Source: a virus | DNA length: 64,000 nt | Reading direction: 5' to 3' (one strand) | Virus record (IMG/VR): IMGVR_UViG_3300030108_004965 | Location: 124,001-188,000 of that record | Shown: one piece after another, positions 2,919-63,876 of the stretch | Layout of the letters: the number at the start of each line of letters is the position of its first letter | How positions within the stretch are numbered: the first letter of the stretch is position 1 | Notes under the pieces: generated by a model | What the model saw: only the letters and a program-made list of their open reading frames with translations | What the model was told of the DNA's origin: nothing | Databases searched by the model: none | Program-made: the position numbers and the translations under genes

Positions 2919-3614
2919 CTACTCCTTGGATTGATATGCTTTTTCTGCTGAGTATACACCAGTTTCATCACCCATTGCAAGACTTGGGTCGTCGCTATTA
3001 AAGAAGGGAATCTGAAACTTCTTACCTCCGATAGCACTAAACAAATCTGGTGCGTCTTGTGCTACTTTCCCAGAAACAATAACATCTCTGTCGTCCACAG
3101 CATAATATTCTTGTGGACCAAACGCTGGTTCGTCAGAACCATCCGGTTCTGTCTGATAATAGGTCAACCTAAAGTAGACACTCGGTTGACCTTTACGATA
3201 ATTGCGTATTAATTTTTCGCCACCAATAACAGCAGCCTGACCGTATTTTTTTCCAAGATCAATTAGGTCTTGCTTTTTAATGTTCAGTACAAAATAACTT
3301 GTTTCATCACCGCCATACTTACCAGCAAGTTGAACATAATCAAGACCTGCTGAGTCTAGTGTGTTTCTTAAGTCACTCATTCTTTCTGCGTTAGATCCTT
3401 CGTCAGCAGACTCTCCTCTCGGGTTTTCCGCTGTTAGTATACCTATTCTCTGTAGTTCTGCTCGTGGGTTGGGATCCCTTAGCATTCCCAAGACTTGATC
3501 TAAGGACAAATCAACTTGTTTTTCAGTTAAAAAAGGACTCTCCAGCAACACAGATTTCTTTCTACTCTCTAGTATTACTTGTTTAATCATCTGTTTTAAA
3601 TTTTCTTTATTCAT
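2919..3614 (-). CDS. Tagged protein with DUF3293-like domain
   Basis: 231 residues, start overlapping the GroES-like stop (ATGA). The N-terminus MNKENLKQMIKQVILESRKK is a looser form of the class I tag, with an I-L-E|S site at residues 14-16 that fits the gp21 prohead protease preference (L/I-x-E). Residues from about 58 on (GILTAENPRGE, then NTLDSAGLDY, SYFVLNIKKQDLIDLGKKYG and QAAVIGGE) resemble DUF3293, a small domain of unknown function. The C-terminal third is a beta-rich extension. A possible head-internal protein; the DUF3293 match is by eye. Confidence 0.65.
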   Translation of the reverse strand: MNKENLKQMIKQVILESRKKSVLLESPFLTEKQVDLSLDQVLGMLRDPNPRAELQRIGILTAENPRGESADEGSNAERMSDLRNTLDSAGLDYVQLAGKYGGDETSYFVLNIKKQDLIDLGKKYGQAAVIGGEKLIRNYRKGQPSVYFRLTYYQTEPDGSDEPAFGPQEYYAVDDRDVIVSGKVAQDAPDLFSAIGGKKFQIPFFNSDDPSLAMGDETGVYSAEKAYQSKE

Positions 3615-32994: not shown

Positions 32995-34821
32995 TTAGGA
33001 AGAACCTTCCTCACCAGCAAGTCCACGAACGATAACAAGACCGTACATATCCGGACGAACCATCTTCTTCGCATAGCGAGTCATTACGCCTTTACGAGGA
33101 ACAAAGTCTTCTGGTCCGAAGATTGTAGGTGTAGTCTGTAGCGGTACGTATGGAGCATAGACATATCCACTTTCGAGGAATGAAGAGCCTTTACGACCTA
33201 CTAGGACCACGTTACGTGGGAAGTATGGGTCAACCAAGACGTCAAACTTACGGCTCAAAGAACCTACGTTAACGGCCCCGATGTCGCCTTTGTCAGCGTC
33301 AGCAGTAACATTAGCACGGAAGCCTGCGGTGAATTCAAGAATGTTAGCAACTTCTGGAGAAACAACTACGAAGTTTGCTCCACCACGAAGAGTCTTTCTG
33401 TGGATTTGAGCAGAAACGTCGTTGATAGTTTCAACGAGAGTCTCGTACCATTCAGAAACAGTTCCGGTGAAATCAGGAGCAGCAGAAGCAGCGCCGAGTT
33501 CAAGACCAGTTTCACGGTTCACAAATAGACCCGGAGAACGAGACCAGTAATAAGTAGCAGCATGAGCACCGTTTACAAGATCAGCAAGAATCTCACGATC
33601 GATCTCAAGAGCAATTTGCTCAGAAAGGATAGAAGTCAACTCTACCTCAGCATCCAAATTGTGGTAAGCGTTCAAGTCTTGACCCAATTCTGGAGTCCAC
33701 TTGGCTTTCAATTTCTTGGTTTGTGCTGTGATAGCGCTTGAGTCAACTTTGATATCAATCTCTGGAATTTTTTCGATTCCTTCCATTGCGTATTCGTATC
33801 CCTGAAGACCACCTGCAGGTGCAGTACCAGCAGTAACATCATCTTTAACTGGGAAAATCAAAGAGTCAATTGCCAAACCAGCAGCGCTAAATGCCCCAGA
33901 TTGACCTGCTGTGATGTTTGAACCTACAACAACATAACGAATGGCTGCGATTTCATTTGTCAACGATGATCCAGTATCTTTAGCTTGAGTCAAGCGACGG
34001 ATCTGGCCTGTCAAAGTATTAAAGGCACCATCAGCGTCCTGAAGACCACCTGTACCGGTTAGGTTTTTGATGTCAAAAGCCGCGAGATTATCAAGATCAG
34101 GAGACCCTAACGAAGCACTGTGGCTGGCCTGTGCGATATCAAGAACTCCAACCATAAGAGTTGAATCAGTCACAGACAAGAGGTCTGGGTCGAATTTGAT
34201 AAGTTTTTTGTTTGCTGCGGATACGTTGCCATCCAAGGTAAACGTAGAAACCAAGGTTGCCTCAGCTTCTGTTTGACCAATTATTGTTGAATTACTTCCG
34301 CTTGGAGAAGCATAAGCATAACCAACCATTCCACGAGGACCAGATAGGTCGGCTTTAGTAGTAGTGTCAATAAGATCTACACCTTCTTCAATTCCAGAAC
34401 CCTTTTTATTAGTACCATAGATAGAAGCATCAGCGTCGTTTCCAAAGCGAGGATCAAGACCACCACCAGAACTTTTTGCATCAGGTGAATACACAAAGTC
34501 AAGGAAGAAGATCAGCCCACTAGGGAGTGACATTGGTTGAACACTAACAAGATCGTTAGCGATAAGTCCGGCGAATACACGACGAACAATTGGAAATGCA
34601 ACGGCAGCGAAACCTTCAACATCTCCAGCAGTCATTGAAGAACTCTCACGAAGAAGTTCTTTTGCTTGGTTTTCCAACAATCGAGCCATGTTGTGCTTAT
34701 GATTGTCGCTTTGAAGGCCTTCGAGCAAACCAGTAGCCGACCACTTGTCAAGAAGAGCTTGTCCTTCTTGGGCCATATTACGGCTTACAATACCTTCGGT
34801 TAATTTTTGTACAATAGACAT
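32995..34821 (-). CDS. gp23-like: Major capsid protein precursor (gp23-like)
   Basis: 608 residues; AAGGAGG upstream. The N-terminal propeptide (1-59) ends in ELLRE, giving an L57-R58-E59|S60 site of the gp21 type. The mature protein starts SSSMTAGDVEGFAAVAFPIV, then RRVFAGLIANDLVSVQPMSLP, the conserved HK97-fold opening of gp23. Further conserved parts: LKAKWTPELGQDLNAYHNLD, ELTSILSEQIALEIDREIL, DVLVDPYFPRNVVLVGRKGS, YAPYVPLQTTPTIFGPEDF and RKGVMTRYAKKMV. It builds the icosahedral head. It follows the scaffold gene and ends at a strong terminator, fitting high expression. Confidence 0.96.
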   Translation of the reverse strand: MSIVQKLTEGIVSRNMAQEGQALLDKWSATGLLEGLQSDNHKHNMARLLENQAKELLRESSSMTAGDVEGFAAVAFPIVRRVFAGLIANDLVSVQPMSLPSGLIFFLDFVYSPDAKSSGGGLDPRFGNDADASIYGTNKKGSGIEEGVDLIDTTTKADLSGPRGMVGYAYASPSGSNSTIIGQTEAEATLVSTFTLDGNVSAANKKLIKFDPDLLSVTDSTLMVGVLDIAQASHSASLGSPDLDNLAAFDIKNLTGTGGLQDADGAFNTLTGQIRRLTQAKDTGSSLTNEIAAIRYVVVGSNITAGQSGAFSAAGLAIDSLIFPVKDDVTAGTAPAGGLQGYEYAMEGIEKIPEIDIKVDSSAITAQTKKLKAKWTPELGQDLNAYHNLDAEVELTSILSEQIALEIDREILADLVNGAHAATYYWSRSPGLFVNRETGLELGAASAAPDFTGTVSEWYETLVETINDVSAQIHRKTLRGGANFVVVSPEVANILEFTAGFRANVTADADKGDIGAVNVGSLSRKFDVLVDPYFPRNVVLVGRKGSSFLESGYVYAPYVPLQTTPTIFGPEDFVPRKGVMTRYAKKMVRPDMYGLVIVRGLAGEEGSS

Positions 34822-34841: not shown

Positions 34842-36050
34842 TTATTTAATGCCTGCAAGTTTCTGCATTTTCTTTATAAAAGAATCATCAGAATTCTTGC
34901 GTTCGTTTAAGTTTTGTCCCCGGTTAAGCATACCAGACAAGTTCGATCTACGATTAACGGTTTCGCTCAGTGATTGTGGACCCTTTTTGTTGTCGGATCC
35001 CACTGTCGTCCTTAATGTTTCATGAAGTTGCTTGGCCTCTTTGGGAGACTCCGCGTTTGCGATGGCTTCGACAATTTTTGACTTTTGTCGCTCATTCAAG
35101 GAGGCATCATTTAAAGTGCGGTTTTGGTAGAGAAGTTTTGCGTTTGAAAGCAAAGTCTCTTCTAACTTATCGTTTAATTTGTAAACGATTGACTCAAGTT
35201 TTTCGTTTTGAGTCATAAGTAATTCGATTGTTTCTTGAAGTTTGGAAGTTTCATCTTCTTCCTCTTCTTCATCTTCTTCGTCATGAGCGTCATGTGCTTC
35301 TTGTTTTAGTTCTTCGTATTCCAAAGTGGCTTCATTTGTTTGAAATGTACCATCCTTTTGGTGGCTCATGTCGACCGTGATCTTTTCTTCGATCACATCA
35401 GTTTCATATTCTTCTAATAAATCTAGTAATTCTTGTAGTGGCTGTTCGGCGTCTTCTTGTTCTTCGTCCTCTTCTCCTCCGAGATCAAGACCGCCAAGAA
35501 GATCTTCTTCTGCTTCGACCTCTGGTGCGATGTCGTCACCAATTGAAAACATATCATCTTCTGGCATTGGGGTATCATCCTTTGCCATTTGATCTTCAAG
35601 TTCTCCAAGATCGATTGTGATGTCGCCTTCAATGTCATCAATCCTCAAGTCTAAGGTAACTGGTTCATCTTCCGAAACTCCGGGGTCTGATGCTAGTGGA
35701 GCAACAATATTGGTCAAGTCACCTTCACCACCAGCGTCCGTTGCCATGTCGGCTTCTTCTTCGTTTAAAAGATCATCAGCGGAAGCATGTTCTAAGTCTG
35801 CTTCTTTGACCATAAAAGGCTTGCCTCCTGCCTCAGAAACGGTAACATTACCGTCGTCATCTGCTTCATGAACAATAGACACGATCCGACCTTCATATTT
35901 CATCGTGGTGGGCGTGTCCTCCAACATTGTTTTGACGGCCTCTTTAATTTGAGGTGCATATTTTTCAATCAGCGACTGTTCCGCATTTTTCAACGCAGCC
36001 TCACGAAGCGCTGCAGCATCAATGATGGCTTGTTCTAACATGCTCGACAT
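34842..36050 (-). CDS. gp22-like: Prohead core scaffold protein (gp22-like)
   Basis: 402 residues; AGGAG upstream. Very acidic middle (runs of Glu/Asp at about 165-230 and 265-275), mainly helical, with a conserved C-terminal part: LLSNAKLLYQNRTLNDASLN, ERQKSKIVEAIANAESPKEA, and the basic end DSFIKKMQKLAGIK. This is the gp22 scaffold layout; it forms the core on which gp23 assembles and is later digested by gp21. Several L/I-x-E sites are visible. It sits directly before the capsid gene, as in T4. A CTATTTATTAGGAATAAT element lies about 30 nt upstream. Confidence 0.85.
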   Translation of the reverse strand: MSSMLEQAIIDAAALREAALKNAEQSLIEKYAPQIKEAVKTMLEDTPTTMKYEGRIVSIVHEADDDGNVTVSEAGGKPFMVKEADLEHASADDLLNEEEADMATDAGGEGDLTNIVAPLASDPGVSEDEPVTLDLRIDDIEGDITIDLGELEDQMAKDDTPMPEDDMFSIGDDIAPEVEAEEDLLGGLDLGGEEDEEQEDAEQPLQELLDLLEEYETDVIEEKITVDMSHQKDGTFQTNEATLEYEELKQEAHDAHDEEDEEEEEDETSKLQETIELLMTQNEKLESIVYKLNDKLEETLLSNAKLLYQNRTLNDASLNERQKSKIVEAIANAESPKEAKQLHETLRTTVGSDNKKGPQSLSETVNRRSNLSGMLNRGQNLNERKNSDDSFIKKMQKLAGIK

Positions 36051-45329: not shown

Positions 45330-45545
45330 TTAATTTTGTCTCCGGAGACGCTTGCGAAGTTCTTTTTTGTGCTTTGCGATCGCTCTCTTTTTTGCTAGTC
45401 TTTTCTTGACAGAAGGTTTTGTATAATATCTATTATCCTTTACCTCATCAATAATGCCTAATTTTTTACATTTTTTGATGAATCTTTTGATAAATCTATT
45501 TGGGTCTTCGTTCTTTCGAGGTTTTTCTATGTGATTAGTAGCCAT
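45330..45545 (-). CDS. rpsU: Ribosomal protein bS21
   Basis: 71 residues, beginning directly after the preceding stop. The line NEDPNRFIKRFIKKCKKLGI, then RYYTKPSVKKRLAKKRAIAK and KHKKELRKRLRRQ, matches bS21 along its length (E. coli NEPFDVALRRFKRSCEKAG and [20 protein letters not shown]). bS21 sits near the anti-Shine-Dalgarno end of 16S rRNA and helps initiation. A phage copy could replace host bS21 on ribosomes and favour phage mRNA; that role is inference, though bS21 genes are known in several marine phages. It sits among late genes, next to the prohead protease. Confidence 0.92.
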   Translation of the reverse strand: MATNHIEKPRKNEDPNRFIKRFIKKCKKLGIIDEVKDNRYYTKPSVKKRLAKKRAIAKHKKELRKRLRRQN

Positions 45546-45956
45546 TTATTTTCCCGCCAGTTTTTTCCAAACTTGCTTAGACATGCCGAACTGAGAGATG
45601 TCCACTCCCGGATCGTTTGGGGCTACACCATCTAAGGCTTTAGAGCCATGGGGAGACGATGATCCTTGAGATCTGGGCATCGGTGTGGTTCCTTCAAACA
45701 AATCTACTCCATTATAAGCATCTTTGCCAATTGCATCAAGCATTTTTCTTTTTTGCTCCAGCAATTGTTTTCTTTTCTGCTCAAACCGTTCAGAATTGTC
45801 ATCGTGGCTATTTTCTTTTACAACTATTTGTGAAGAAGATGTGCCCTTTACAACCTCAGAAATGATTGTAGAAAGAGTACCATCTTCGAAAATTACCTCT
45901 TTGATGCATTCTTTTATCAATGGTTTTAGGATTTTTCTAAGTTGGTTTTTATTCAT
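45546..45956 (-). CDS. Tagged protein between bS21 and the prohead protease
   Basis: 136 residues; GGAG 5 nt upstream. It opens MNKNQLRKILKPLIKECIKE, a variant of the class I tag with three L/I-x-E sites (residues 14-16, 18-20 and 22-24). The middle is helical (SERFEQKRKQLLEQKRKMLD) and the end MSKQVWKKLAGK resembles the basic C-terminal tail of the scaffold. Position next to gp21 recalls the small T4 core proteins gp67/gp68, so I propose a prohead core or internal protein. Confidence 0.65.
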   Translation of the reverse strand: MNKNQLRKILKPLIKECIKEVIFEDGTLSTIISEVVKGTSSSQIVVKENSHDDNSERFEQKRKQLLEQKRKMLDAIGKDAYNGVDLFEGTTPMPRSQGSSSPHGSKALDGVAPNDPGVDISQFGMSKQVWKKLAGK

Positions 45957-46574
45957 TTATTCTCCGAGGATTTTCTTAAAAAGATCATTGATACTGTTTT
46001 CTTTGACTTCCCGTAAACGTGTTGAAACATTGTTCATTTGATCTTTTGGATAAACGTATGCGTTGGGGGTTGATGGCTCTGAAACAATATCGAAACAGAT
46101 TAGTTGAAAATCATTTTCAACCGTAACAGTACCGTTTGATGATTCTGTTACGGACCCCAATCCTCGGGAAGAAATTCCAAGTTTCACACCAGCGTTTATC
46201 AAATCTTTGAGTATTCTACCTGAAGGTGTGTCAAGTACTTTTAGTTTTCCCATAACATCTTTACCTTCCCACCAAACATCCGTAACAATGTGCGAAACAT
46301 TTTTGAGGTTGACAACTGAGTCATCAGGGTGATCTAGTTCCCCGCAGGCTCTGGCATCTTTTACGATTTTATCATAGTTATCCATTTCACGTTTCAAGAC
46401 GTTATATGGATAAACTCTGCCGTTTCCGTTTTGCTTGTCAGCAGTTTGCAAACGACCAGACATGTAAAGGACTTTGCCATTTGCCATTTCTTTTTTCTCT
46501 CTTTCGGTTAAAAGATCTTGACAAATGCCCCCTTCACAGAGTGCATAGAATTCTCGTAATAAAGTTTTTGACAT
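45957..46574 (-). CDS. gp21-like: Prohead core protease (gp21-like, peptidase S77 type)
   Basis: 205 residues; GAGG 5 nt upstream. The hallmark segments are present: GRVYPYNVLKREMDNYD, ACGELDHPDDSVVNLKNVSH with His82, VMGKLKVLDTPSGRILKDLI and NAGVKLGISSRGLGSV with the catalytic Ser in GISSRG (135/136). The enzyme matures the T4-like prohead by cutting after L/I-x-E. Its own N-terminus has TLLRE, an L-x-E site. It should cut the capsid propeptide (L57-R58-E59), the scaffold and, by inference, the tagged proteins in this window. Confidence 0.92.
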   Translation of the reverse strand: MSKTLLREFYALCEGGICQDLLTEREKKEMANGKVLYMSGRLQTADKQNGNGRVYPYNVLKREMDNYDKIVKDARACGELDHPDDSVVNLKNVSHIVTDVWWEGKDVMGKLKVLDTPSGRILKDLINAGVKLGISSRGLGSVTESSNGTVTVENDFQLICFDIVSEPSTPNAYVYPKDQMNNVSTRLREVKENSINDLFKKILGE

Positions 46575-46991: not shown

Positions 46992-47786
46992 TTACCCTCG
47001 ACGGTATCGTGTCACAAATAAATCTGTAGACTGTTTTATTAGTTCGTCTTCTAGAGAACCTATGTTTTTAACATTTCTAGAGTATTCCTGATGTCTTTCA
47101 GACATGTTGTTATATACTTTGGAATACTGGTTTGGCTCCATAGCCCAACTGTTGCTGGTCCCTATCCCTCCTCTATACTTCTTTCCAAAAAACATTGATT
47201 TAAATGTGATATCTGTCGCTTTACCAACGTCACAATCATCCTCTTTATCATCCGGAGTATCATTTTCATAATCAAATTCATCATTACCGGCATCCGTTGT
47301 TCTTTTAATTAAGTTTTTTGTCTTAGAAAGTTTATCCCAAGCGGCTTTAGAGTGCTTATTACTAGAAGCAGCGTGATCAGAGGTGAGCCCCCCACCAAGC
47401 ACTTGATTGACATAGTGAAATACCAAACCATAGATCAGTGGCCCCACGCCTTGACCTTCGAATTCTTTACGTATTGAAACATAATTTACCTGATAAGTAT
47501 CGGGGATGCAAGGCTTGTCAGTTTTAGAAAACCACAACATCCCTAGGACTTCTCCCCTAAGTATCCAGCCTTTATTATTAATTTTGGTAGGTCTCCATAA
47601 AATTAACTTGTAAATTTCGCCGTCTTTTCTTATAAACAAGGCAGGCTGTTCCGGTTTCGGTTGTCCCATTTTGTACCCGAAAGCCGAAAGAGATGGTTCA
47701 CGCGGTTCTAATTTATCTTCTGGTTCTGATGGTCTGTTGAAGAAGTCTCTCCAACTTTCCATTATTAAGTTCATTTTTTTAGACAT
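46992..47786 (-). CDS. Class II tagged protein with GNAT-like acetyltransferase core
   Basis: 264 residues; GAGG 6 nt upstream. It starts MSKKMNLIMESWRDFFNRP, the class II tag (I-M-E|S at residues 8-10). The core VNYVSIRKEFEGQGVGPLIY, then GLVFHYVNQVLGGGLTSDHA, with SKAAWDKLSK, matches a GNAT fold: GQGxG acetyl-CoA loop at about residues 112-116 and the strand/helix after it. It may acetylate a host or virion target. If the tag directs packaging, the enzyme would be delivered with the DNA. Substrate unknown. The C-terminal 80 residues carry no known motif. Confidence 0.65.
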   Translation of the reverse strand: MSKKMNLIMESWRDFFNRPSEPEDKLEPREPSLSAFGYKMGQPKPEQPALFIRKDGEIYKLILWRPTKINNKGWILRGEVLGMLWFSKTDKPCIPDTYQVNYVSIRKEFEGQGVGPLIYGLVFHYVNQVLGGGLTSDHAASSNKHSKAAWDKLSKTKNLIKRTTDAGNDEFDYENDTPDDKEDDCDVGKATDITFKSMFFGKKYRGGIGTSNSWAMEPNQYSKVYNNMSERHQEYSRNVKNIGSLEDELIKQSTDLFVTRYRRG

Positions 47787-52747: not shown

Positions 52748-53221
52748 CTATTCGGAACGAAGGTCTAGATCTGGTTTTTTAGAAGCCTCTGTGTCTTCGT
52801 CATCAACTGCTTTAAATTTCGCCTCGTAAGAGGAATTGATTTGCTGTAACGCTTGAAGTGCTTCTGGGTCTTTCGCTACATTTTCGGCTCTGTCAATGAG
52901 TGCATCTAGTAATTCACCAAGCCCTATGAATCCGTCTCTATCTTGGCGTATCATCTCGGAAGTTATGGCACCGATAGCTTGTGCTGCATTTTCTAATGAA
53001 TTTCGTCCCATATCAGACTTACCTTTAAGTCTTAGTTTGGGAGCCGCCAATCTAGAAAGTGCCACAAATTGTTTACGAAAAGTTTCGTTTTTTCGATAGT
53101 ATTCTTGGCTCATTGCAACCTCTCGTCCGAGATAATCAGCATCTCCAGCGCTTGCTTCCGCCAAAACAATTTTTAATTCTTCTTTTATAATTTGTTTTAG
53201 TCGTTCTTTTGTAACTCTCAT
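52748..53221 (-). CDS. Class I tagged protein of unknown function
   Basis: 157 residues; GGAG upstream. The N-terminus MRVTKERLKQIIKEELKIVL is a textbook class I tag: T4, K5, L8, I12-K13-E14, with a second L20-A21-E22|A23 site. The rest is helical and soluble (MSQEYYRKNETFRKQFVALS, RLAAPKLRLKGKSDMGRNSL) with an acidic C-terminus. It overlaps the start of the terminase transcript region. Candidate internal head protein. Confidence 0.65.
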   Translation of the reverse strand: MRVTKERLKQIIKEELKIVLAEASAGDADYLGREVAMSQEYYRKNETFRKQFVALSRLAAPKLRLKGKSDMGRNSLENAAQAIGAITSEMIRQDRDGFIGLGELLDALIDRAENVAKDPEALQALQQINSSYEAKFKAVDDEDTEASKKPDLDLRSE

Positions 53222-53775
53222 TTTTGATTTGCTCCTTTTTTACGCGTATCGTTCTGGGGTCGCTTTGTTGAATGTTGAGCCAGAAACTTTCTGGTTACAT
53301 CTCTTTCCGTGGGTTTTGATGGCTCAAGAAGCCCATCGATTTCTTTCATTCCTGAAATTTTATAATGCTGATATGCTTGAACAAAAGTTCTAACTCGGGA
53401 GGTTGTTTGTACTAAAATTTGTGGCTCACCTTTTTTGGTCAAAGTGATCCCCTTTCCAGTTATTGCTTTGTATTCTCTTTGAAGGAATTTTTTTACTTCA
53501 TTTAACATTCGCTCTATTTCTTGTTCATATTTTGGATCAGCAACATCTTTAAGTCTTGTGTCGCTCTGGTAATTAATACAAACAGAATCGGCATAAAATT
53601 TGACACCAAAGCCATCGTTGACTCGACTATCCATAAGAGGACAACCTTGTTCTCTATTTAGACCTACCTTTCTTACTTGTCCGTCCAAGGAGAACCGCTC
53701 ATCGTGCGCACCGTCATAAGCGTTTGAGGCTGCTTGTGCTAAGCCTTGAATAATTTCTAAAGTGGTTGAACTCAT
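53218..53775 (-). CDS. Conserved phage protein of unknown function, terminase-proximal
   Basis: 185 residues; AAGGA 10 nt upstream. It starts MSSTTLEIIQGLAQAASNAY, then DGAHDERFSLDG, GFGVKFYADSVCINYQSDTR, LKDVADPKYEQEIERMLNEV. The C-terminus is basic (RKFLAQHSTKRPQNDTRKKG). I have the impression of a widespread marine phage protein, but no function is known to me. Its place before the tagged protein and the terminase suggests a structural or packaging role. Confidence 0.65.
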   Translation of the reverse strand: MSSTTLEIIQGLAQAASNAYDGAHDERFSLDGQVRKVGLNREQGCPLMDSRVNDGFGVKFYADSVCINYQSDTRLKDVADPKYEQEIERMLNEVKKFLQREYKAITGKGITLTKKGEPQILVQTTSRVRTFVQAYQHYKISGMKEIDGLLEPSKPTERDVTRKFLAQHSTKRPQNDTRKKGANQK

Positions 53776-53790
53776 GTTGTTTTTTTCCTT

Positions 53791-54519
53791 TTAAATAGTT
53801 GCGACAAACACAGTAATATCGCAAGCAGACCCTGATGCCTGAGCAGAAATAGAATCAAAATTATAAAAATCTGTTGGGGTCCATAGTGCATCAGCAACTA
53901 GAATTGCTTTTGCTGCTGCGCCACTACCACCACCGCCTGAGAAGCCAATGGTCGGAGCAGAAGTGTACCCAGTTCCCGGGTTTGTTATTGTAACTGATGC
54001 GACGGTATTACCATCTAATACCGCTGTTCCGGTTGCGCCACTACCACCACCTCCACTAAAAGCTACAGTAGGCGGAGAACTATAGCCACTCCCAAGATTT
54101 GACATGGAAGCAGAGAAGACTGATGTTGTATCTGAAACAGCCCCGCTCATTGCAGCATTTGTTGTGTTAACATTCATCTTTAGACTATAAAAAATCTCAG
54201 TACTGTCTCTCCCAATTGTTCGGTAGAAAGTTTGTCCGCTTGCTTTATGGTTTAGTTTCATCACAATCTGTTTTTGGTCATCTAGATTGGTAATCCTAAC
54301 GTATCTAACATCATCATCTATAAAAGTTCCCGGCGAAACACTGGAAGAAAAGCTCACAATTTCGGTGAAACTCCCAGTCCCTATGTTCATTTGTCTTTGT
54401 GAAATGTGAGTCATCCCACTCTTCTGAAATGAACTGGTAAACTCATGCGCAATACCACCGATGTTAATAGTCTCTGTAGTCTTAACAGTCAAGGTGGCTG
54501 GTGTTATTGTCGTTGCCAT
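53791..54519 (-). CDS. Virion structural protein with Gly/Ser repeat
   Basis: 242 residues; GGAG upstream. N-terminal beta domain (NIGGIAHEFTSSFQKSGMTH, FIDDDVRYVRITNLDDQKQI). Residues about 140-205 hold two copies of a 'GxGY(S/T)S(P/A)P(T)(V/I)xFSGGGGSGA' unit followed by VASVTITNPGTGYTS, then a short beta end (ACDITVFVATI). Such repeats occur in phage fibre and tail proteins. The DNA of the two copies is also similar. Surface or fibre role is inference. Confidence 0.65.
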   Translation of the reverse strand: MATTITPATLTVKTTETINIGGIAHEFTSSFQKSGMTHISQRQMNIGTGSFTEIVSFSSSVSPGTFIDDDVRYVRITNLDDQKQIVMKLNHKASGQTFYRTIGRDSTEIFYSLKMNVNTTNAAMSGAVSDTTSVFSASMSNLGSGYSSPPTVAFSGGGGSGATGTAVLDGNTVASVTITNPGTGYTSAPTIGFSGGGGSGAAAKAILVADALWTPTDFYNFDSISAQASGSACDITVFVATI

Positions 54520-54522
54520 TTT

Positions 54523-54897
54523 CTACTCCGGTCTCCATCCTGTAGCCCATCGCTCTTCTCTGCCTTCAACCCATTGAATGTAACATTTAAAGCAACATTT
54601 AAATTTGGTCATGTATACGTCATCATTCGATTTAAATGAATATGTATTACAAACAGGACAAGAACGCTTGGATTCTTCTTTAAGTAGTTTTGAGGGTATA
54701 AAAACGCCAAAGATCTCTTCTTTGTCAAGATCTTCGGTGTCTGCATCCGGAGAGAATGTGTCTTTTAATTGTTCTAAATATTCTTTTTCTTTATTGTTAT
54801 CCCATCTTGATTTTGGATTAACAACAGTTTCTTTTCCGTATTTCTTTGCAATTGCTTGCTCTACTTTGATAGCGTAGTTTGGATCTTTATCCTTCAT
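54523..54897 (-). CDS. Small zinc-ribbon-like protein
   Basis: 124 residues; GGAGG close to the ATG. The C-terminal part has CPVC (residues about 81-84) and CCFKC (about 101-105), a Cys4 zinc ribbon, then a Trp-rich end (WVEGREERWATGWRPE). The N-terminal half is a charged helix. No family known; possibly protein or nucleic-acid binding. It lies next to a row of tagged proteins. Confidence 0.65.
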   Translation of the reverse strand: MKDKDPNYAIKVEQAIAKKYGKETVVNPKSRWDNNKEKEYLEQLKDTFSPDADTEDLDKEEIFGVFIPSKLLKEESKRSCPVCNTYSFKSNDDVYMTKFKCCFKCYIQWVEGREERWATGWRPE

Positions 54898-54909
54898 GAA
54901 ACCTCCGCT

Positions 54910-55164
54910 TTATTTAGAAAGAGATAATCTTAAAAATTCAGCAGCCTTGTCAAAACCGGCAAGCTCCAACCTAGAGGCTAAGTCGTCAATTTGAAAAGGC
55001 TCAAGGTCAAGTTCTCGACCAACCAAATCAGGTTGAATGTCCTTGTATGATGTAGTTTTGGTCACCATATCTGACATTTCTTCGGGACTCAAATTTTCAT
55101 ATTCCTCAAGATTTTCGATCTCTTCTTTAATAATTTTTTTTAATTGTTCTTTAGTTATTTGCAT
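54910..55164 (-). CDS. Class I tagged small acidic protein
   Basis: 84 residues; GAGGAATAATAAA before the ATG. N-terminus MQITKEQLKKIIKEEIENLE is the consensus tag (I12-K13-E14). The remainder is acidic and helical with a compact C-terminal domain (QIDDLASRLELAGFDKAAEF). A candidate internal virion protein; function unknown. Confidence 0.7.
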   Translation of the reverse strand: MQITKEQLKKIIKEEIENLEEYENLSPEEMSDMVTKTTSYKDIQPDLVGRELDLEPFQIDDLASRLELAGFDKAAEFLRLSLSK

Positions 55165-55168
55165 TTTA

Positions 55169-55492
55169 TTATTCCTCGTAACTTAATGGGTCGTCATGCT
55201 TACCCCGCATACCTGATCGGTACAAGTCTGCTAATTCTTCTGCTACGACCTGAACCAGTTCCGTTCCGGGCGCCATCTGTGTTAGCAGGAGCGAATACAT
55301 GTCGTCGGTCTCATCATCATCAGGCGAGATTCCTGACATTGTCTCTGCTGTTTTCAACACTTCTTCGATAAACATTTCCAAGTCCTTTGGCATCTCAAGC
55401 GGAGTGTTTGGGTCAAGCATGTCTGCTTCGGCAGTCAGGCTTTGGATCTCTTCTTGAATCATTTTCTTCAAATTTATTCTAGTTATTTTCAT
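55169..55492 (-). CDS. Class I tagged small acidic protein
   Basis: 107 residues; GAGG upstream. N-terminus MKITRINLKKMIQEEIQSLT is a tag variant (I12-Q13-E14). The body is very acidic (GISPDDDETDDMYSLLLTQM) and helical, with a C-terminal LYRSGMRGKHDDPLSYEE. Overlaps the spanin-like gene by 14 nt. Function unknown. Confidence 0.68.
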   Translation of the reverse strand: MKITRINLKKMIQEEIQSLTAEADMLDPNTPLEMPKDLEMFIEEVLKTAETMSGISPDDDETDDMYSLLLTQMAPGTELVQVVAEELADLYRSGMRGKHDDPLSYEE

Positions 55493-55886
55493 CTATTTTC
55501 CTCACGGCGTAATATGTTCCCAGTGATGTTCCCGAGGCTAATAAAAAACCGCCAAAGAATGCCCACATGGTTTTGTTTGGTCTTATTTCTTTTCGGAGCG
55601 CCGCAATCTCTTGATCTCGAAGTTCCAATAGAGTTGTATTTTTTTCCGTTTCGGTTTCCAACTCTGCTTTTAAATAGTCTAATTCCAATTGTAATTCCGC
55701 TTTTGATAAAGATAATGCAAGTTCTTTTTGGATCTCGCATTGCTCAACTGACATCTCTCGACCAGCAATAATGTTGGCCACTGCCTCATCGTTCATTAGA
55801 CGACCGTAAAAGGGTGCTGCTTCGCCTTCTTCAAGGTGAACCATCAAAGGCTCTGCTATCGCTGAAGAAAGCAAAAATAGTAGCAC
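55479..55886 (-). CDS. Secreted or membrane protein, spanin-like
   Basis: 135 residues, GTG start overlapping the previous stop (TAGTG). N-terminal signal-like MLLFLLSSAIAEPLMVHLEE, then EGEAAPFYGRLMNDEAVANI, a coiled coil (about 50-100), and a C-terminal hydrophobic segment (MWAFFGGFLLASGTSLGTYY). The 'L..G..APF.G.L' motif occurs in small phage lysis-region proteins. With the next gene it may form a spanin-type envelope-disrupting pair. The call rests on layout only. Confidence 0.5.
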   Translation of the reverse strand: MLLFLLSSAIAEPLMVHLEEGEAAPFYGRLMNDEAVANIIAGREMSVEQCEIQKELALSLSKAELQLELDYLKAELETETEKNTTLLELRDQEIAALRKEIRPNKTMWAFFGGFLLASGTSLGTYYAVRKIDENN

Positions 55887-56290
55887 TACTTCTTTCCTTT
55901 TGTATCCATAACAAGGATACCAAACTCTTCGTTGAGAATACGATCAATCTCTTGTGGGTTCTCTTTGTTCGTTTCAATAAGCCTACGCACTCTTTCTGCT
56001 TTTACTAATTCAATGTGGTCGTTAGACTCCATAGCAGTTTTGTGAGCGATCTCTAGGGCTCGTTGATATTTTAAATTTGCCACCGTCATTTTTTCTATTT
56101 TTTTGTCGGAGGCACCTTCGATAGCGTCGATTTCTTTTTTATAAAGTTCTCGAGCCATCTGCATTTGTGTCTGGAGGGCTTTGACTTTCTTTCCTCCAAG
56201 AAGATAGGCTAAAAGTATAGCGCCCCCAATAACCAGAAATCTCCAGTTATGGAAGCACCATAGTTTTATTTTAGCCCAAGTAATAGTCAT
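55886..56290 (-). CDS. Inner-membrane protein with periplasmic coiled coil (i-spanin-like)
   Basis: 134 residues from ATG 56290 (ATGA overlap with the preceding stop). A single N-terminal membrane segment (WRFLVIGGAILLAYLLGGKK) is followed by a long helix (ALQTQMQMARELYKKEIDAI onwards) that would be periplasmic. This matches i-spanins. It directly precedes the signal-bearing coiled-coil gene. Lysis role is inference. Confidence 0.55.
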   Translation of the reverse strand: MTITWAKIKLWCFHNWRFLVIGGAILLAYLLGGKKVKALQTQMQMARELYKKEIDAIEGASDKKIEKMTVANLKYQRALEIAHKTAMESNDHIELVKAERVRRLIETNKENPQEIDRILNEEFGILVMDTKGKK

Positions 56291-56535
56291 TGCTTGCCCT
56301 GACTCTTTCCCCACTCATAAGCCGCCTGAACGTATTCTGGGTCATACTCGCCCCATTCTGGGTCGTCTTGCATGATTCTCATGTCTTCTATGAAGTCTTC
56401 AATAGAGGAAGCAGTCCGCGCAGCAGTGACAATCTCTCGATCTTCTACTGGGTCAAATCCATAGGCCTGATCTTCCATGACAGCACTAAGTTCTTCTTTG
56501 ATAATTTGTTTTAATTGTTCTTTGGTTATTTGCAT
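56287..56535 (-). CDS. Class I tagged small acidic protein
   Basis: 82 residues. N-terminus MQITKEQLKQIIKEELSAVM, the consensus tag (I12-K13-E14). The rest is acidic and contains DREIVTAARTASSIEDFIED and DDPEWGEYDPEYVQAAYEWG. The GAGGA that serves as its ribosome site lies within the end of the cysteine-rich peptide gene just upstream. Function unknown. Confidence 0.7.
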   Translation of the reverse strand: MQITKEQLKQIIKEELSAVMEDQAYGFDPVEDREIVTAARTASSIEDFIEDMRIMQDDPEWGEYDPEYVQAAYEWGKSQGKQ

Positions 56536-56537
56536 GT

Positions 56538-56606
56538 CTATTCCTCACAAGTTGGACACGTACAGCAAGGGCAACAATCACCACAGCATTCATGTAAGTT
56601 TTCCAT
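56538..56606 (-). CDS. Cysteine-rich 22-residue microprotein
   Basis: Frame from ATG 56606, with AGGAGG 8 nt upstream. Of 22 residues, eight are Cys (positions 7, 8, 11, 12, 14, 15, 17 and 20), in a CCxxCCxCCxCxxC array. The remaining residues are mainly acidic (MENLHE at the start, EE at the end). The array recalls metallothionein-like or metal-cluster peptides. The next gene starts 2 nt after its stop. The ribosome site is as strong as any in the window. Function unknown. Confidence 0.65.
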   Translation of the reverse strand: MENLHECCGDCCPCCTCPTCEE

Positions 56607-56610
56607 TTTA

Positions 56611-56847
56611 TTATCCTCCTAAAATGTCTTTAATCTCTTCTATGTCAGACGGATCTATTTTGAGTTCTAAATATAATTCCTCTCCGTTTTCGAATTTTAT
56701 ATCAATAGCAGCAGTCCCAGCATTTAAATTGATTTGTACTGGTGCAGTAGGTTGTGCCATTGTCGTGCCTACACGCCTTGCCGACCTACTATAATCTGCC
56801 ATCCCTTCTATTATTAAATTCTTTAGTTGTTCTTTTGTGATTTCCAT
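56611..56847 (-). CDS. Class I tagged small protein
   Basis: 78 residues; GGAGG 7 nt upstream. N-terminus MEITKEQLKNLIIEGMADYS, the tag with I12-I13-E14|G15. The rest contains TAPVQINLNAGTAAIDIKFE and ELYLELKIDPSDIEEIKDIL, a small alpha/beta fold with a C-terminal DILGG. Function unknown; candidate internal protein. Confidence 0.68.
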   Translation of the reverse strand: MEITKEQLKNLIIEGMADYSRSARRVGTTMAQPTAPVQINLNAGTAAIDIKFENGEELYLELKIDPSDIEEIKDILGG

Positions 56848-62313: not shown

Positions 62314-62751
62314 TTAATCTAAATCATTCATCGCATCTTGATAAGCACGTTCATCACCAGTTGGACTAATCAATCTTTTTACAACATAATATTCTGGGTC
62401 GCCTTGTGTGTCGCCGGGATCCAGAATCCAGTAGTCACCAAAGTGATTTGGGGTCAAATCTCGCATCGGTTCAGGGGACCACGAATAGTAATCTAAAGTA
62501 GAATGCTTCCCAAACGTTCCGGGCTTTTTAAATTTAATGTATGGAATAGGACTACTATGTCTCTTTTCCCAGTTATCCCACTTATCAGACATTGGAATTC
62601 GAGCGAACGCTCTCATTGCTCTAGCGCGGCGCTGTTGTAGTAAACGCTCTTTCTCTTCACGCTCGCCCTCTGCATCAAGTTCAGGTCTAAAATCACTTTC
62701 GTTAATTGTTTCTAAGATTAATTCTTTTAATTTTGCTTCTGTTAGTTTCAT
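62314..62751 (-). CDS. Class I tagged protein of unknown function
   Basis: 145 residues; GAGG before the ATG. N-terminus MKLTEAKLKELILETINESD: tag variant with I12-L13-E14|T15 and I16-N17-E18|S19. The next 30 residues are charged helix (GEREEKERLLQQRRARAMRA), then a Trp/Tyr/Pro-rich globular part (DNWEKRHSSPIPYIKFKKPG, DYWILDPGDTQGDPEYYVVK). It sits in the replication arm, unlike most tagged genes. Function unknown. Confidence 0.65.
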   Translation of the reverse strand: MKLTEAKLKELILETINESDFRPELDAEGEREEKERLLQQRRARAMRAFARIPMSDKWDNWEKRHSSPIPYIKFKKPGTFGKHSTLDYYSWSPEPMRDLTPNHFGDYWILDPGDTQGDPEYYVVKRLISPTGDERAYQDAMNDLD

Positions 62752-62768: not shown

Positions 62769-63314
62769 CTAATTAGTGAAAATTTTCTTTATTTCCTCTG
62801 CTGAAATGTGGTCTGGTATAAATTCGTCAATGGGATCCCCTGCCTTCAAGGCTTCGCGAAACTCTGTTGCAGAGACAAGATGCTCTTGTTCATAGGTGTG
62901 TTGGATCTCGACGATGTTAGCGAATGATTTGAAATAACTGAGGAAACCTGCTTGGTATCCCGTATCTTTTGAAGAAAGCCCTAGGGAGATTTCGTTCTCT
63001 GTTTTGTCGTGATTTTCCTCAGCCCAATCATACACATCAGCAAAAGGGTTTGTATAGTGGCCGTTAGACCCCTTTCTTACCTTCGCACGTTGATAGATGA
63101 CCTTTGGGTTATCCAAGATGCCGTAAAGCCTTAAAACGGCTTCTGCTTGCTCTATAGAGACCGCAAAGTCATCGCCAACTTTTCGCTGACGTTCCCCGCA
63201 GAAAATTCTAACCTCAGATACATGAGGGTTGTTGATGTAGTGCATAAAAAATTTGTAATGTCCTACGTGTGGCGGCTTAAAACCGCCGGGTATTAATACA
63301 GTAACCATGTCCAT
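62769..63314 (-). CDS. Nucleotidylyltransferase of the NadR/NMNAT class
   Basis: 181 residues from ATG 63314, which has AGGAGG 4 nt upstream; the longer frame overlaps the promoter. It has the HxGH nucleotide site LIPGGFKPPHVGHYKFF and the closing motif LVSATEFREALKAGD (the (I/V)S(A/S)T..R of this superfamily). These enzymes transfer an AMP or CMP group to a phosphate, as in NAD, CoA or lipid precursors. Substrate cannot be fixed here. A role in keeping NAD during infection is possible. Confidence 0.72.
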   Translation of the reverse strand: MDMVTVLIPGGFKPPHVGHYKFFMHYINNPHVSEVRIFCGERQRKVGDDFAVSIEQAEAVLRLYGILDNPKVIYQRAKVRKGSNGHYTNPFADVYDWAEENHDKTENEISLGLSSKDTGYQAGFLSYFKSFANIVEIQHTYEQEHLVSATEFREALKAGDPIDEFIPDHISAEEIKKIFTN

Positions 63315-63341
63315 GTGTCCTCCTAGTGCATGATAATATAT

Positions 63342-63370
63342 AATGTAACGTGTTAAGTAGTATTTGTCAA
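63342..63370 (-). promoter_or_regulatory. Sigma-70-type promoter for the NadR-like gene
   Basis: Minus strand TTGACA (63365-63370), 17-bp spacer ending ACGT, TACATT (63342-63347). The -35 overlaps the stop of the RuvC-like gene. Confidence 0.78.
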
Positions 63371-63876
63371 GTAGAAAAGTGAGACAAAGCAACGACAATT
63401 GAATCAGCCATGTCGTCAGTCCCGGGCTTAGGGTTTCCGTGGCGGGTTAATTCAACAATAAATTCTTTTGGGTATTTTTGCTCAACCCATTCAATAATTT
63501 TTTTCTTTGTATTTTCGCCTCGTTTAATTTTAATTCCGGATTTTGATCTGGCTGTTCTTGACGGAACAAGGATTGGGATTTTATTAAAACAATGATAAGC
63601 CATTAAACAAATCATTCCATTAAATCTTTGCAATTTGGCCATAGTTCCAGCAGTAGTTTTTCCTCCACTGAACATTGTAAATGGCTCCTCAACTCTTACT
63701 TCAGAGATTTTATATTTTCTTTGGATTACCTTAAGTTCATTACAAAAAAATGCCCAAGCCTTTTCTTCTAGAGTTTCCTCTTTTAGTTTTTTAAAGTTGA
63801 CTTCTAAAAGTTTTTGTTTATCATCAAGCACACAGTAGCCTATTTTGGAGGTACTCACATCTATCCCAAGTATCAC
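63367..63876 (-). CDS. RuvC-like Holliday junction resolvase / RNase H-fold nuclease
   Basis: 169 residues, GTG start with GAGAGG 8 nt upstream. It shows the RuvC pattern: Asp6 in ILGIDVSTSKIGYCVLD, VRVEEPF with Glu, and the C-terminal GTDDMADSIVVAL with two Asp residues for the metal site. FSGGKTTAGTMAKLQRFNG fits the conserved helix. It would cut branched DNA formed by recombination before packaging; T4 uses an unrelated enzyme (gp49). Confidence 0.85.
   Translation of the reverse strand: MILGIDVSTSKIGYCVLDDKQKLLEVNFKKLKEETLEEKAWAFFCNELKVIQRKYKISEVRVEEPFTMFSGGKTTAGTMAKLQRFNGMICLMAYHCFNKIPILVPSRTARSKSGIKIKRGENTKKKIIEWVEQKYPKEFIVELTRHGNPKPGTDDMADSIVVALSHFST

Follow-up and report, generated by a model that had tools for sequence, protein, structure and literature searches.

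Why should several small proteins of a T4-like phage begin with the same short N-terminal helix and then diverge? The question is raised by a window of 64,000 nucleotides (the whole stretch of DNA analyzed), bases 124001-188000 of the 191,696-base uncultivated virus record IMGVR_UViG_3300030108_004965 (G000:124001-188000). A first-pass annotation had listed six open reading frames (ORFs) with this helix, here called the class I tag, and their coordinates and N-termini were found to be right. All are on the minus strand: 52748-53221 (157 residues, immediately upstream of the terminase gene), 54910-55164 (84 residues), 55169-55492 (107 residues), 56287-56535 (82 residues), 56611-56847 (78 residues), and 62314-62751 (145 residues). 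A six-frame scan of all 191,696 bases, with a start codon required, retrieved exactly these six as class I matches. They fall within 10 kb adjoining the terminase and head genes; the chance of six random points spanning ≤10 kb is approximately 2e-6, only a rough figure because the genes of a module tend to lie together in any case. It had been proposed that many small cargo proteins are brought into the head by means of the tag, which gp21-type cleavage after residue 14 then removes. Our comparisons support such loading and cleavage well, but that position is probably wrong. We consider it likely that the class I tag is an alternative capsid targeting sequence (CTS), which would be removed by gp21, in a large branch of T4-like phages, most of them marine.

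We collected 736 distinct tagged proteins from IMG/VR (about 3 Mb of loci), whose consensus is MKITKxQLKxIIKEELxxVLxE. IMG/VR was searched with a degenerate DNA pattern of this consensus, whose listed matches are a lower bound, and with two further patterns (61 and 100 stretches). Counts inside this corpus are not population frequencies, because it was selected by the tag itself. The carriers are large, uncultivated, mostly marine T4-type phages. Enrichment across the record and its relatives, a check suggested by the first-pass annotation, was far beyond chance: whole-record counts gave 2-26 tagged proteins per genome, all on one strand, versus none (once 1) for the reversed pattern, and arrays reach 13 tagged genes. 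On the other hand, no tag was found at the same threshold in a random IMG/VR sample (120 loci, 1.05 Mb, picked by an arbitrary 14-mer), and 84,980 bacterial and archaeal species genomes contained no match to the consensus pattern. Among cultured phages, tblastn with a 22-mer gave a single weak match, which lies in an uncultured record, and a looser form of the tag occurs in Flavobacterium phage immuto (immuto136C_190, MKKSQLRQIIKEAL).

Several lines of evidence showed that the shared element is a peptide. Among 923 deduplicated matches (residues 2-16), 894 are at a start codon. Conservation is strong to residue 16, weak to residue 22, and absent beyond, where the cargo sequences diverge. It would be highly improbable that the shared start is instead a DNA or expression element, such as a translation start region, a seat of recombination, or the trace of a recent duplication. 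Some tags of one genome are indeed close in DNA (36 bases at 89%), and copying or recombination at the tag thus probably happens. However, across ~240 tags the third codon positions are free to vary and only the ribosome site is conserved upstream, and copies of the tag also occur internally and C-terminally, as peptide. A DNA-level element was therefore rejected.

We then analyzed the presumed cut. T4 gp21 cuts after L/I-x-E (PMC9026906). A site of the form [LIVMF]-x-E whose first residue falls at 16-22 (Glu at ~18-24) was detected in 552 of the 736 tagged proteins (75%), compared with 14% in equal downstream windows and 23% in untagged long ORFs. Within proteins, the hydrophobic residue and Glu are coupled at positions 20/22 (p 2e-52), 19/21 (p 2e-18), and 17/19 (p 2e-39), and no comparable coupling was observed past approximately residue 26. 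The residue after the site (P1') is enriched in Ala, Gly, Gln, and Ser. For internal and C-terminal tags the site is on the opposite flank, ≤10 residues upstream, in 12 of 24 cases versus 15% (p 6e-5); examples are FQE↓S, VVE↓N, LGE↓S, and IVE↓N (arrow, predicted cut). A C-terminal tag copy follows a site in two loci, L149 (QPPLQESRNLMSISRERLQEIIKEEL) and, as a near copy, L147.

The first-pass annotation had placed the cut at the I-x-E of residues 12-14, and this motif is present in all six window proteins. It is unlikely, in our judgment, that the tag targets the head but is cut at 12-14 or at both sites. In its favor, residues 12-14 almost always read I/L-x-E, in keeping with the T4 gp21 rule, and the 78-residue protein has this site alone (IIE14↓G). 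But the motif lies within the conserved helix, residue 14 is followed by Glu in 630 of 736 proteins, and homologues with swapped tags (see below) align their cargo boundary at the later site. Because of this P1' Glu and the conservation that runs past residue 14, a main cut at 12-14 appears less likely. Better supported is the floating [LIVMF]-x-E, with Glu at ~18-24, where conservation stops. Probable sites in the window are VLAE↓AS in the 157-residue protein (Glu 22), NLEE↓Y in the 84-residue protein (Glu 21), VME↓D in the 82-residue protein (Glu 21), and INE↓S in the 145-residue protein (Glu 18). The 107-residue protein has no strict second site (SLTAE↓A) and carries I-x-E at 12-14 only.

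When tag-stripped cargo was searched by BLAST against all ORFs, homologues with different starts were found. Some begin with a second tag, class II (MKLLxENWRxF[LVI]xE, 48 distinct), whose core, aromatic-x-x-aromatic-hydrophobic-x-Glu, is spaced as in the T4 internal proteins (IPs) IPII and IPIII (MKTYQEFIAE↓A). In the T4 sequence, residues 4 and 7 are tested determinants of targeting, and residues 8 and 10 of processing (PMC9026906). One cargo carries class I in one phage and class II in another (c53/L101, MKITKQQLKQIIKEELSKVMNE↓SMPGMEPYDLS vs MNKLFENWNKFLKE↓SPPGMEPYDLS); further pairs are c6/L342, c98/L114, c521/L069, c330/L267, c639/L355, and the c10 family. The c10 family also has a member in the window, 46992-47786 (minus strand), a weakly GNAT-like protein with a degenerate class II start (MNLIMESWRDFFNR); among its relatives, the start is either a full class II tag (KLIMESWRKFLTE↓S) or the class I tag (c10). 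Among 41 non-redundant pairs whose tags differ, 26 tagged partners have a site (background for sites elsewhere, 14/53). In other homologues the cargo lies inside a longer protein, with a site immediately before it (LNE↓A, LLQE↓G, LTE↓G). Since class I and class II replace each other on the same cargo, the most likely role of the helix is that of a second head-packing address label.

Just outside the window (G000:118,535-119,914, minus strand, approximate coordinates) is the gene of a multi-domain protein of 460 residues with a high content of Lys and Cys. It contains three tag-like helices, and hydrophobic-x-Glu sites separate its domains. Its VWPSAYASGALVKCRK domain recurs in 366 records of marine phages, most of them cyanophages, and there it is often encoded next to the terminase.

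The window also contains head genes. A minus-strand block holds terminase, portal, a gp21-like protease, a scaffold-like acidic protein, and a gp23-like capsid protein; terminase and portal were named by similarity to relatives and by position. The best relatives of the terminase are in Flavobacterium phage immuto (46%) and Microcystis phage Mel-JY01 (43%), followed by T4-like cyanophages. As the first-pass annotation had noted, 45957-46574 (minus strand) is homologous to gp21-type prohead proteases (phrog_207, E 5e-57) and is the presumed tag cutter. Among records ≥120 kb, this family was found in 23 of 23 that are tagged and in 3 of 6 random ones, a small control (Fisher p 0.005). The gene directly after gp21 often encodes a class I protein, a class II protein, or a member of a family with the start MNKxxLKKxLKPLIKECIKEV. 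In the window this neighbor is 45546-45956 (minus strand, MNKNQLRKILKPLIKECIKEVIFEDG), a candidate prohead core protein with no relative among cultured phages. It had been grouped with 2919-3614 as a looser form of the tag; we assign it to this separate conserved family, while 2919-3614 does belong (see below). A gene for ribosomal protein bS21 (45330-45545, minus strand; PF01165, E 3.5e-10) lies two genes past gp21, and RpsU of Microcystis phage Mel-JY01 occupies the same place.

The tag is an amphipathic, coiled-coil-type helix, and it might dock proteins to another structure or machine, such as the tail or baseplate, the lysis or replication/transcription apparatus, or a phage-built compartment, and be retained there. 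Some tagged genes of the window are among membrane-type, possibly lysis genes, and the largest genomes have tagged arrays far from gp21. We regard this explanation as improbable: a flanking gp21-type site is conserved and its side is set by the position of the tag, the tag is swapped with a T4-type CTS, and gp21 is present in all large tagged records.

The gp23-type major capsid protein (32995-34821, minus strand; phrog_138) has a propeptide ending NQAKELLRE↓SSSM, in agreement with the L-R-E↓S end read earlier, and relatives are alike. Ahead of its gene is that of the scaffold-like acidic protein (34842-36050, minus strand), which ends in FIKKMQKLAGIK; scaffold-like proteins of the clade end in xRMQKLAGIK. 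Eight large proteins (233-714 residues), putative cargo, end in an xRMQKLAGI-type motif with hydrophobic-x-Glu shortly before it in each: L045:977-2383, L082:346-2310, L086:7559-8260, L115:599-2680, L120:4922-6691, L197:12398-14542, L200:5984-7597, and L297:9302-11077, the last with a weak zeta-toxin-like match. In Flavobacterium phage immuto, a motif similar to xRMQKLAGI opens a small protein (MKKQILSEQFRRMQKLAGIITES). A separate idea, that the class I tag was copied from a scaffold helix, was rejected, as a position-specific scoring matrix scan of 23 scaffold-type or LAGI-tailed proteins gave nothing above background.

For T4-type starts, comparison with virion contents is possible in Synechococcus phage S-CREM2 (OR473000), whose virion proteome has been published (PMC10665884, Table 3). 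Detected non-structural enzymes with such starts are gp6, gp12, gp13, gp14, and gp154. The T4-type core lies at residues 4-10 of the detected S-adenosylmethionine hydrolase (MKDFDSFLEE), kinase (MKRFDAFLTE), cytidylyltransferase (MKNFSSFLTE), and gp13 (MKDLHSFLTE), and FASFMAE↓A occurs close to the start of the detected Cas9-like nuclease. Genome-wide, 4 of 5 annotated proteins bearing the core were detected versus 52 of 219 overall (p 0.012), with a motif that was defined after some of these proteins had been seen. T4-type starts would explain why these enzymes turned up in virions. In addition, the detected gp160 has DACYHKVKARYDVWPSAYASGALVKCRK, a domain which is also present in the multi-domain protein of our record and in class I-tagged c345.

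Taken together, a reasonable model is that the helix brings its protein to the prohead core and docks it there as the head is assembled. A gp21-type protease would then cut after hydrophobic-x-Glu, usually at Glu 18-24, a position proposed because of the site statistics and the aligned boundaries, and free the mature cargo in the head. The same cargo can take MKLLxENWRxFLxE↓ instead, and the two labels, whose swaps are observed, may be functionally interchangeable. There are also cargo domains that directly follow a site within a longer protein, and proteins with a second tag near the C-terminus. Together with the DNA, the cargo would probably enter the host, like T4 Alt and IPs. We give roughly even chances to a more elaborate version, in which a large group of uncultivated T4-like and jumbo phages would possess a modular system for cargo, with two or more swappable tags, a C-terminal tag copying the scaffold tail (xRMQKLAGI), and multi-domain precursors that are separated by cleavage within the head; dozens of small proteins would thereby be loaded into each virion, freed by gp21, and injected.

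Several observations weigh against head targeting by class I. We know of no class I tags in S-CREM2, and the virion presence and cleavage of class I proteins are predictions from sequence. The strict second site is missing from 2 of the 6 window proteins, the aligned site is common to only a minority (16) of the 41 tag-differing pairs, and the protease co-occurrence control comprised six random records. Most mature class I cargo is acidic, with a median charge of -0.05 per residue, in contrast to T4 IPs, which are described as basic (PMC9026906). Finally, the S-CREM2 authors noted that the detected enzymes may have co-purified (PMC10665884).

With regard to cargo identity, Pfam and PHROG searches left almost all cargo without assignment. 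The few class I matches are to pentapeptide-repeat, DnaJ, and EF-hand families, and class II cargo matched NUDIX, GNAT, exonuclease, and, weakly, zeta-toxin-like families. Most relatives of 52748-53221 have only the tag in common, and an AlphaFold model of this protein (no alignment) shows only a separate helix at residues 5-23, with low confidence (predicted local distance difference test score, pLDDT, 54). A full-length homologue of 55169-55492 (35%) carries the tag too. The DUF3293 protein 2919-3614 (minus strand) has a looser start (MNKENLKQMIKQVILE↓S) and was counted as class I because its homologue c378 bears the canonical tag.

Next to the tagged gene 62314-62751 lies 62769-63398 (minus strand), which by eye is of the cytidylyltransferase or nicotinamide mononucleotide adenylyltransferase (NMNAT) type (GGFKPPHVGH), while a Pfam search gave no match. 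Related proteins have been reported from cyanophage virions.

Detailed knowledge of T4 internal proteins comes from few phages. With a recognizable tag, candidate head cargo, that is, proteins likely active at the first moments of infection, can be read from genome sequence in abundant ocean phages without a cultured member. The question of which proteins T4-like phages bring into the cell thus becomes testable over thousands of genomes, and laboratory work on packing proteins into phage heads gains new tags.

A literature search, with most subscription journals outside its coverage, found no paper describing the tag, and related systems are known from other phages. In the giant phages SPN3US and phiKZ, many ejection proteins are packed into the head and their propeptides are cut after x-Glu by a gp21-related protease; the SPN3US site is AXE, unlike class I, and the available parts of the two sources report no common short tag (PMC10052503, PMC9026906). 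In P1, the N-terminal signal of DarB (10-30 residues) packs the protein or a reporter into the head, comparable to class I, but its authors found no consensus among Dar proteins (PMC9024508), whereas class I has a strong shared one. Also unlike class I phages, a separate scaffold is not reported for P1. The closest comparison is the CTS of T4 IPII and IPIII. Like class I, it is a short tag at the N-terminus of small proteins that are otherwise unrelated, a hydrophobic-x-Glu site comes next, and the phage has a gp21 protease; for class I, the site at the tag end (552/736) is aligned with class II sites, and the protease occurs in all 23 tagged records ≥120 kb. Some large putative cargo here bears signals N- and C-terminally, reminiscent of T4 Alt, whose two ends are both processed (PMC9026906). 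Class I differs in its longer helix (~16-22 residues), in occurring on up to 26 proteins per genome, in its mostly acidic cargo, and in being known from sequence alone. It has Thr4 and Gln7 in place of the aromatic Tyr4 and Phe7, whereas class II of the same phages fits the T4 pattern and keeps its spacing. Because this aromatic pair is missing, class I is best described as CTS-like in its working while standing outside the CTS sequence family.

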